NCBI GenBank assembly: GCA_003219095.1
Contig: QHPM01000108.1
Span: 1-17,698 of the forward strand
DNA length: 17,698 nucleotides
Direction: 5' to 3'
Origin: Verrucomicrobiota bacterium
GTDB lineage: Bacteria > Verrucomicrobiota > Verrucomicrobiia > Chthoniobacterales > UBA10450
Below the pieces are notes generated by a model. That model made no database searches. It worked only from the letters and a program-made list of their open reading frames with translations, and was not told where the DNA came from. A program made the translations under genes and the position numbers. This document shows positions 9,621-16,690 of this stretch, piece by piece. The first letter of the stretch is position 1. Every line of letters starts with the position of its first letter.

Positions 9621-9703
9621 GTCATCCCGAGCGGAGTCGATGGATCCCGAAATGAAAGCTTTAAGGGAGCATCACGGGATCCGTCGACTCCGCTCGGGAT
9701 GAC
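9621..9703. repeat. Near-perfect palindromic repeat, REP-like, 29-bp arms
   Basis: Arm 9621-9649 begins GTCATCCCGAGCGGAGTCGA and ends GGATCCCG. Arm 9675-9703 is its reverse complement with one mismatch (T/C, a wobble in RNA). The loop is 25 nt. It lies just 3' of the LolC/E-type gene, between convergent genes. It could end transcription or protect the RNA 3' end, though no long T-run follows. Related sequence occurs at 7656 and 16598. Confidence 0.88.
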
Positions 9704-9764: not shown

Positions 9765-10130
9765 TTATTTCCCCTTGGCCTCGTGCAATTCTTTCATTGC
9801 ATTGTGCAGGTCTTCGTGCGCCTGGATGATGGCGTCGAGTTTGGTCTGCTGCTCCGGGGTAAGCAGCGGCCGAATCTGGGCGACCGAAGCATCAATTACC
9901 GCCCTGGCCTTCGTCATCGCCTCCTGATGGATCGCCTGAAGCTGCGGTTTCGCCTGATCAAAGATCGGCTGCACCTTCGCCTTCTGCGCGTCGGTCAGGT
10001 TGAGCGACGAGCTCATTTCCTCGAGCGGATTCAAATGCCAGCTTCCATGCGGCCCACCCGGAGGCTGCGCCTGCGCGAAGCTAAAAGCGCCGAGCGCGAT
10101 TGCTGCAATTATTGTCAGTGTTTGTTTCAT
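9765..10130 (-). CDS. Secreted Spy/CpxP-like (LTxxQ) periplasmic protein
   Basis: This 121-residue protein has a signal peptide (MKQTLTIIAAIALGAFSFAQA, cleavage after AQA near 21). The mature part is helical with two LTxxQ-type motifs, LNLTDAQKAKVQPI (43-56) and LLTPEQQTKLDAI (89-101), the signature of the Spy/CpxP/ZraP group. Those proteins act in the periplasm as ATP-independent chaperones or metal-binding stress proteins. His residues near the N- and C-termini (PHGSWH, HEDLH, ELHE) could bind metal. It is transcribed away from the ECF sigma gene, and its upstream region carries GTAACC-N16-GGTC, the mirror of the sequence before the sigma gene. I infer that it is an effector under that sigma factor. 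Confidence 0.82.
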   Translation of the reverse strand: MKQTLTIIAAIALGAFSFAQAQPPGGPHGSWHLNPLEEMSSSLNLTDAQKAKVQPIFDQAKPQLQAIHQEAMTKARAVIDASVAQIRPLLTPEQQTKLDAIIQAHEDLHNAMKELHEAKGK

Positions 10131-10174
10131 GTTTTCTAATTTTGCGACGCATGATTGCGCCTTTGCTCATGGTT

Positions 10175-10200
10175 GACCACGATTCCGGCTCCGTGGTTAC
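10175..10200 (-). promoter_or_regulatory. Candidate ECF promoter for the Spy-like gene
   Basis: The minus strand reads GTAACC (10200-10195), a 16-nt spacer, then GGTC (10178-10175). An AAC-containing -35 and a GTC-type -10 at about 16 nt are typical of ECF sigma factors. Transcription would start near 10168, giving a leader of about 38 nt before the ATG at 10130. Confidence 0.6.
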
Positions 10201-10216
10201 AAATTTTTTTGTAACC
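10195..10216. promoter_or_regulatory. Inverted repeat shared by two divergent promoters
   Basis: GGTTACAAA (10195-10203) and TTTGTAACC (10208-10216) are perfect 9-bp inverted arms around TTTT. The outer six bases of each arm form the -35 candidate for one direction. The same symmetry could also serve as an operator or fold as an RNA hairpin. Confidence 0.75.
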
Positions 10217-10236
10217 GGTGCGGCTTGCATCCGGTC
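10211..10236 (+). promoter_or_regulatory. Candidate ECF promoter for the sigma-factor operon
   Basis: GTAACC (10211-10216), a 16-nt spacer and GGTC (10233-10236) match exactly the spacing and elements found on the other strand. Transcription would start near 10243, about 26 nt before the sigma ATG, which suggests autoregulation. Confidence 0.6.
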
Positions 10237-10268
10237 TTTTCTTTTGGTGTGGATACCTTTCTCTACGC

Positions 10269-10838
10269 ATGGATGACGATGAGCACGCTGGCGTTTTGGT
10301 CGATCGCGCGCGCGGCGGTGACGAAGACGCTGCCCGCGAACTCATTCGCCAATTGTATCCGTTGGTGGCAAAAATTGTGCGCGGCTATCGGCCGCGCCGC
10401 ACCGCCGAAGAGGATCTAGCGCAAATGATTTTCGTGAAAGTTTTCCAAAAGCTGGCGCAATATTCCGGCAAGGTGCCGATCTCTCATTGGGTTTCGCGCA
10501 TTGCGGTAAACACCTGCCGGAACCAGTTGGCGGCGGAAAAAGCGCGACCGGAACTGCGTCACGCCGATCTGAGCGAAGAGCAGGCTGCGATGCTGGAAAA
10601 TCTCGCGGCCTCAGATGACGCCCTCTCCCCCGATCGCAAACTCGCCGCACGCGATCTGGTGGAAAAGTTGCTCACCATGTTAAAACCGGTAGAACGCCTG
10701 GTCATCGATATGCTTTATCTTCAAGAACGCAGCGTAACCGAAGTGCAAAAGCTCACTGGCTGGACCGCTGCCACGATTAAGGTAAGAGCCTTTCGCGCAC
10801 GCCAGAAGTTGCGCAAAAAAATTGGAGGCTTGCTGTGA
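10269..10838 (+). CDS. ECF-family RNA polymerase sigma factor
   Basis: This 189-residue protein has sigma region 2 at about 24-90, with the core-binding and -10 recognition pattern EEDLAQMIFVKVFQKL (47-62) followed by ISHWVSRIAVNTCRNQL (71-87). Region 4 is at about 131-186 (MLKPVERLVIDMLYLQERSV, then the helix-turn-helix GWTAATIKVRAFRARQKLRK). Regions 1.1 and 3 are absent, which defines an ECF (group 4) factor. The ATG at 10269 is chosen because the frame upstream to 10218 would run into the promoter elements. It overlaps the next gene by 4 nt (GTGA). Together with the single-pass protein and the Spy-like sensor downstream, it is most likely held inactive at the membrane until an envelope signal arrives. 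Confidence 0.93.
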   Translation: MDDDEHAGVLVDRARGGDEDAARELIRQLYPLVAKIVRGYRPRRTAEEDLAQMIFVKVFQKLAQYSGKVPISHWVSRIAVNTCRNQLAAEKARPELRHADLSEEQAAMLENLAASDDALSPDRKLAARDLVEKLLTMLKPVERLVIDMLYLQERSVTEVQKLTGWTAATIKVRAFRARQKLRKKIGGLL

Positions 10839-16597: not shown

Positions 16598-16690
16598 GTC
16601 ATCCTGAGTGAAGCGAAGCCGAATCGAAGGATCCCGTTGCGGCACGTTGAAGATTTCAGCTCGCGATCTCTCGACTGCGCTCGGGATGAA
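16598..16690. repeat. Degenerate REP-like palindrome, third family member
   Basis: It starts GTCATCCTGAGTGAAGCGAA (16598-16617), then AAGGATCCCG, and ends with CTCGACTGCGCTCGGGATGA (16670-16689). The outer ends are imperfect inverted copies of each other and of the unit at 9621. It fills the gap between two convergent genes, whose stops are at 16582 and 16695. Confidence 0.7.

Follow-up and report, generated by a model that had tools for sequence, protein, structure and literature searches.

Two predicted back-to-back ECF promoters between a sigma factor operon and a divergent Spy/CpxP-like gene in Verrucomicrobiota

We analysed a window of 17,698 nucleotides from a Verrucomicrobiota draft genome, in which the intergenic region between an ECF sigma factor gene and a divergent gene for a Spy/CpxP-like protein carries the pattern GTAACC-N16-GGTC on both strands (Table 1). 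Judged from the sequence and its conservation, these twin sites are best explained, with a probability of about 0.9, as two back-to-back promoters recognized by the neighbouring ECF sigma factor, which would thereby autoregulate its own operon through one and control the Spy/CpxP-like protein through the other. We infer from these patterns that the promoters are active, that this sigma factor is their reader and that the Spy-like protein acts as an effector.

Table 1. Features of the sigma factor locus, in window coordinates
Feature	Position	Strand	Remarks
Intergenic region between the divergent Spy-like gene and the sigma gene			138 bp; both sites inside
-35 element GTAACC, sigma-operon promoter (predicted)	10211..10216	+	invariant in 58 aligned loci
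-10 element GGTC, sigma-operon promoter (predicted)	10233..10236	+	GTC invariant in 58 loci
-35 element GTAACC, divergent Spy-like-gene promoter (predicted)	10195..10200	-	
-10 element GGTC, divergent promoter (predicted)	10175..10178	-	
A/T tract common to both promoters	10201..10210	.	logo positions -8 to -1
Perfect 9-bp inverted repeat, GGTTACAAA-TTTT-TTTGTAACC	10195..10216	.	outer 6 bp of each arm are the -35 boxes
Conserved leader block GTGTGGAT	10247..10254	+	sigma side only, after the sigma -10
Candidate 9-codon mini-ORF, GTG TGG ATA CCT TTC TCT ACG CAT GGA TGA	10247..10276	+	overlaps the sigma start codon
ECF sigma factor gene, 189 aa	10269..10838	+	sigma-70 regions 2 and 4
Probable anti-sigma, 96 aa	10835..11125	+	one strongly hydrophobic segment; overlaps the sigma stop
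Spy/CpxP-like protein with N-terminal hydrophobic segment	11122..11535	+	third gene of the sigma operon
Spy/CpxP-like protein, 121 aa, product of the divergent promoter	9765..10130	-	Metal_resist PF13801 1.4e-10, LTXXQ 3.4e-07

The initial annotation had placed GTAACC-N16-GGTC on the plus strand at 10211-10236 and on the minus strand at 10200-10175, and both the coordinates and the 16-nt spacer proved exact. These were the only two matches in the window, and 200 shuffles gave none. Its statement that the two GTAACC boxes form the outer ends of a perfect 9-bp inverted repeat, with TTTT at the centre, also agreed with the sequence. The A/T tract between the boxes matches the A-rich/TT stretch found upstream of each -35 element and may be UP-element-like.

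Conservation of the sites was examined in loci encoding homologous sigma factors. A total of 146 loci were gathered, and 98 were retained after identical copies and loci with less than 120 bp of upstream sequence had been dropped. The relatives were 80 draft genomes, titled mostly Verrucomicrobia, Verrucomicrobiota, Spartobacteria, Chthoniobacterales, Candidatus Udaeobacter or Pedosphaera, with a few under other titles such as Candidatus Solibacter. A family set of 62 loci was defined by a sigma identity of at least 60.5%, with L166, L169, L172 and L185 excluded by name; these four exclusions were decided after the site results had been seen, and all four loci lack an exact match with the 16-nt spacing. 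When no more than one mismatch was allowed, the 300 bp preceding the sigma start contained a site on the plus strand in 58/62 family loci, on the minus strand in 58/62 and on both in 54/62 (in the worst case 58/64 and 54/64 if L172 and L185, which pass the identity cut at 61.5% and 60.7%, are counted), and both sites were exact in 31/62. Retention of both boxes in relatives with the gene pair was the annotation's own proposed test, which the sites thus passed. In the same 62 loci, the reversed pattern gave no match and the complemented pattern one, while spacers of 13, 14, 15, 17 and 19 nt gave none and a spacer of 18 nt gave one per strand. Among the 26 loci whose leaders are at most 75% identical, 23 carried both sites, and no locus did so in 200 mononucleotide shuffles. 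A looser pattern, GTAAC[CT]-N17-GTC, had a match on each strand within 620 bp in 58/60 loci, L069 (misplaced alignment start) and L144 (masked bases) being left out of this count. The two exceptions were L009, whose minus box reads GTACCC, and L040, where neither a minus site nor a Spy-like gene lies in the 589 bp upstream, at which point the contig ends.

Column by column, conservation of GTAACC and GTC was complete on the plus strand and nearly complete on the minus strand; the first base of the plus -10 element was G in 66% and T in 26% of the 58 aligned loci. Strong conservation extended to the preceding TT, an A-rich stretch 4-8 nt upstream, the C before the -10 element and the A/T after it. 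Much of the 16-nt spacer was free to vary, with part of the plus spacer moderately conserved. As read from the alignments, this column pattern is that of a promoter, (A-rich)-TTGTAACCg-N14-cGGTCAT, so that the recognition sequence predicted by the annotation was borne out and could be extended.

Outside the family, GTAAC-N17/18-GTC (a 15/16-nt spacer) was present within 130 bp upstream of the sigma gene in 30/36 loci, against 0/36 for the reversed and the complemented control, and on the minus strand in 4/36. The plus site was found in 14/36 when the spacer was fixed at 16 nt and no more than one mismatch was allowed. The wide occurrence of the sigma-side site and the rarity of its minus-strand counterpart in these loci suggest an old sigma-side promoter whose spacing and -10 element have drifted, and a minus-side promoter that arose later or is more narrowly distributed. 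Several paralogous ECF sigma genes (L054-L057, L061 and L063) are preceded by GTAACC followed at 15-16 nt by a (C/T)GTC -10 element, a pattern that suggests drift of the -10 specificity within the group.

We then compared, over the 98 loci, the presence of a minus site within 300 bp with that of a divergent Spy-like gene within 450 bp. Both were present in 59 loci and neither in 35, with the site alone in one and the gene alone in three (Fisher p ~6e-22, a statistic that ignores shared descent). Expressed by gene content, the minus site occurred in 59/62 loci with the Spy-like gene versus 1/36 loci without it. In the single site-only locus, L007, the contig ends 240 bp upstream. The three gene-only loci each carry a related site: an exact minus site at -513 near a displaced gene in L142, a site with two mismatches in L044, and one with a 15-nt spacer and CGTC in L054. 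L124 was scored as having neither, since its gene lies beyond 450 bp; it has an exact site at -514 plus the gene farther out. In L124 and L142, about 450 bp of extra DNA separates the promoters, and each promoter remains beside its own gene. Outside the family, 33 of 36 loci had neither the divergent gene nor a strict minus site, and L057, also scored as neither, has a 15-nt-spaced minus site with no Spy-like gene detected. In L024, a second Spy-like gene carries its own copy of the site. Because the minus site tracks the Spy-like gene in this way, it appears to belong to that gene and not to the sigma operon.

The inverted repeat itself fared differently from the sites. The annotation had presented it as the design on which the mirror-image promoters are built, a view contradicted by its distribution: GGTTAC-N10-GTAACC is present in 1 of 11 genus genomes, and among the 54 loci with both sites the -35 boxes are 10 bp apart here, which is the minimum, and 22-152 bp apart in the others. 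This variation implies that the repeat comes from two promoters abutting. Since the gap here is only AAATTTTTTT, the conserved upstream T and A bases of both promoters meet and give the extra arm bases. The repeat is thus, as far as these comparisons tell, a lineage-specific local accident, a by-product of promoters pushed together; a striking palindrome between divergent promoters can be such a side effect. At a box distance of 10 bp, polymerases on the two promoters would probably use common upstream DNA or compete for it, and the separation of the boxes in other species argues that coupling through shared upstream DNA cannot be essential. As read by eye, a dispersed repeat bounded by TCATCCCGAGCG lies in the gap of several relatives of the genus, either as a plain copy or in diverged form. 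Such copies or diverged forms fill part of the gap in L005, L006, L007, L008 and L012, and the repeat starts right after the minus promoter in L069 (G003:C157), a second close copy of the sigma locus in G003 that represents either a duplicate gene or mixed strains. The dispersed repeat gave 109 matches in the genome under study and none for controls. Within the window, it occurs at 9622-9702 and 16665-16689, with an inverted pair just past the Spy-like gene.

Searching the 2.38 Mb genome for GTAACC-N16-GGTC, as the annotation had advised, yielded three matches, two of them the sites described here, versus five for the reversed pattern; the search was therefore at chance level and uninformative either way. 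In this metagenome-assembled genome (74% complete), the longer pattern with at most two mismatches gave 14 matches versus 11 reversed and no clear further regulon member; one further site with a single mismatch lies inside open frames. In 60 genomes, by comparison, the extended motif GTAACC-N16-GGTCAT had 38 exact matches versus 4 reversed (64 versus 4 with one mismatch), 25 of the 38 at the sigma locus and 13 elsewhere. We inspected the open frames at 17 off-locus sites in relatives, made up of the 13 exact ones, three from the one-mismatch search and L024, and at two in the genome under study. A few of these sites precede Spy-like or other small secreted proteins, several lie inside long open reading frames, and no large shared regulon was seen among them. 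In L202 (G035:C52), near a contig end, an off-locus site precedes a Spy-like gene, which may be the missing partner of L040 (G035:C27), the locus in which the contig stops upstream of the sigma gene; the two are possibly one locus split in assembly. By eye, similar small secreted proteins stand behind the extended site in L098 (G027:C22) and L099 (G015:C20), within one genus, and are a candidate further target. On these searches the module looks mostly local, although divergent sites would escape them. Plasmid records searched with 10140-10300 gave no match.

The sigma protein consists of regions 2 and 4 only (PF04542, 3.1e-11; PF08281, 2.9e-08), scored 80.5 bits against TIGR02937 (cut-off 42.9) and has E. 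coli sigmaE (1or7) as its best relative of solved structure. The 96-aa protein encoded next is conserved in place; its family matches all fall below cut-off, and the structure-profile search returned no natural solved relative with a good E-value. By position and by analogy to CnrYX, it is probably the anti-sigma factor, and the third protein of the operon, probably membrane-anchored, is on the same grounds probably the sensor part. The divergent Spy-like protein, which begins with a signal-peptide-like segment and is probably secreted, scored above cut-off for both PF13801 (41.8 bits, cut-off 29.2) and PF07813 (31.4, cut-off 24.3). The anchored protein reached 19.9 bits for PF07813, below that cut-off, and a profile built from 45 of its orthologs found Spy at 3e-5. 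Outside the family, an open frame with LTxx(Q/E) occupies the third-gene position in 25/36 loci. Predicted structures of the two Spy-like proteins were helical, with moderate confidence. As a Foldseek/PDB comparison of both models gave no match with E<=0.001, the Spy assignment rests on the sequence profiles.

These observations are compatible with the following scheme. Release of the sigma factor from its membrane-bound anti-sigma partner would direct polymerase to the plus-strand GTAACC-N16-GGTC and raise the sigma factor, the anti-sigma factor and the anchored Spy-like protein, giving positive autoregulation together with its own brake, while the mirror copy on the minus strand would lead to production of the secreted Spy/CpxP-like protein. 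The likeliest signal would be an envelope condition, such as misfolded protein or a metal, that is sensed by the anchored Spy-like protein and relayed to the anti-sigma factor. Given that the sensor and the product are both Spy-like, the product may in addition weaken the signal. The classical description of ECFs gives them AAC at -35 and CGT at -10 and includes positive autoregulation, which is predicted for about 55% of them (PMC8103513).

A further conserved element lies downstream of the sigma-side promoter. The GTGG[AC] core of the GTGTGGAT block starts exactly 12 nt after the GTC of the -10 element in 60 of 61 loci and at 13 nt in one (L069 omitted), its distance to the sigma ATG varies, and the Spy side of the 62 family loci showed no such block. 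A block of this type with GTC at fixed spacing was matched in 80 of 83 family genomes, mostly a few times per genome, with 0-4 matches for the reversed pattern. The block lies where transcription should start, judging from EcfF, whose start is 6 bp downstream of the -10 box (PMC3420878). Its possible roles are a mark on the initial transcript, a protein-binding site and the opening of a mini-ORF that ends over the start codon of the sigma gene. Across 60 family loci the distance from GTG to ATG is 22 nt in 47, 25 in six, 19 in two and 13 in one, all in one phase; one locus reads 23 owing to a block shifted by one base, and three have no assigned distance. The first codon is GTG in 56 of the 60 (57 after correction for the shift), with GGG, GCG and CAG once each. 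A tentative and rather doubtful proposal is that the sigma transcript starts at or next to GTGTGGAT and that a nearly leaderless mini-ORF of about 5-12 codons couples translation of a leader peptide to sigma synthesis; in most family loci, the stop of this mini-ORF would lie across or directly beside the start codon of the sigma gene. If so, the Spy promoter, which has no block, would let twin promoters yield regulator and product at different levels. The mini-ORF is at most a candidate coding sequence, since conservation by codon position is weak and the protein start M-(D/A)-D in part dictates the TGA; among the 30/36 loci with a site outside the family there are mini-ORFs in differing phases as well as loci that have none. 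As the block keeps its spacing to the promoter and not to the start codon, a role at the level of DNA or of the initial transcript is equally open. The block makes post-initiation control of an ECF sigma factor testable.

Several other explanations of the twin sites were weighed. The sites could be ECF promoters that are read mainly by another, or by several, of the ECF sigma factors in the same cell: the genome holds five matches to the sigma protein at E<=0.001, the protein itself included, paralogous loci use the related boxes GTAACC...(C/T)GTC, and cross-recognition by the paralogous sigma factors encoded behind GTAACC-N15/16-(C/T)GTC in relatives is possible. However, across genera and orders the motif accompanies this sigma gene at a nearly constant position upstream, and the extended matches are concentrated here, which makes a different main reader improbable.

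The remaining alternatives take the repeat or the matches as something other than ECF promoters. A perfect 9-bp palindrome with a 4-bp centre has the usual shape of an operator, and as DNA this one folds better than its shuffles (200/200), as might be expected of a site for a separate dimeric transcription factor beside which the GGTC matches are incidental. That reading is largely refuted by the variable separation, since the half-sites at the other 53 two-site loci lie 22-152 bp apart, each still 16 nt from its own GTC; with the palindrome so rare in the genus, we give it very little credence. Less probable still is a transcription terminator or structural hairpin. The repeat is T-rich and stem-forming and adjoins a weak stem of six pairs (10217-10231), one of three such stems in the region where 1.3 are expected, but it sits between divergent genes, is itself absent from the terminator-scan list and is not conserved. 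A sigma-70 reading of the repeat was rejected, as were the operator and terminator readings. Chance resemblance would account for the chance-level frequency of the bare pattern genome-wide, yet both sites recur in 54/62 orthologous loci and in no shuffle, and this conservation reduces its probability to a negligible level.

The predicted ECF promoter pair and its operon share features with several known systems. The ECF16 group, which includes Caulobacter sigmaF and Bradyrhizobium EcfF, has the promoter motif GTAACC-N16-CGAA (PMC3511200, PMC3420878), with the GTAACC -35 and N16 spacing also in the sigmaF-binding sequence (PMC3511200). The -35 element and spacing are the same here, but the -10 element is GGTC in place of CGAA, and in place of the six-segment DUF1109 anti-sigma of the OsrA type (PMC3420878) there is a 96-aa protein with one hydrophobic segment and no DUF1109 match in the family-profile scan. 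Assignment to ECF16 was rejected because the -10 element and the second protein differ. The CnrYXH system of Cupriavidus metallidurans, in which a membrane-bound CnrYX complex controls CnrH, likewise combines a short second protein with another membrane-anchored protein, and the sigma profile matches CnrH (4cxf) at 2e-8. The gene order here is sigma, small protein, anchored protein, as against cnrYXHCBAT (PMC9045368); none of the six proteins scanned here is an RND efflux protein, and the anchored-protein profile of 45 orthologs found no chain named CnrX at E<=1. Without a match to a CnrX-type periplasmic metal sensor, membership in this system was also rejected. In CnrYX itself, the anti-sigma CnrY is presumed to be switched when CnrX binds metal (PMC4598750).

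RpoE-like autoregulated ECF operons resemble the present one in having a sigma gene followed by a probable membrane anti-sigma, an own upstream promoter-like site and a -35 element containing AAC. The differences are the -35 TTGTAACC and the -10 cGGTCAT, a Spy-like third gene, a divergent Spy-like target and a second protein without a curated anti-sigma match above cut-off. Enterobacterial Spy and CpxP are controlled by the Cpx/Bae two-component systems. The proteins described here share with them LTxxQ motifs, helical models and profile matches to Spy (3oeo and 5wo1), but are probably under an ECF sigma factor, and one of the two, probably anchored, is a product of the sigma operon. No published description of the module was found in the literature, of which our coverage was partial. 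The module is ordinary in kind and unusually well supported. It provides a well-supported recognition sequence, (A-rich)-TTGTAACCg-N14-cGGTCAT, for a group of ECF sigma factors in Verrucomicrobiota draft genomes, and its two promoters and four genes form a ready test system.
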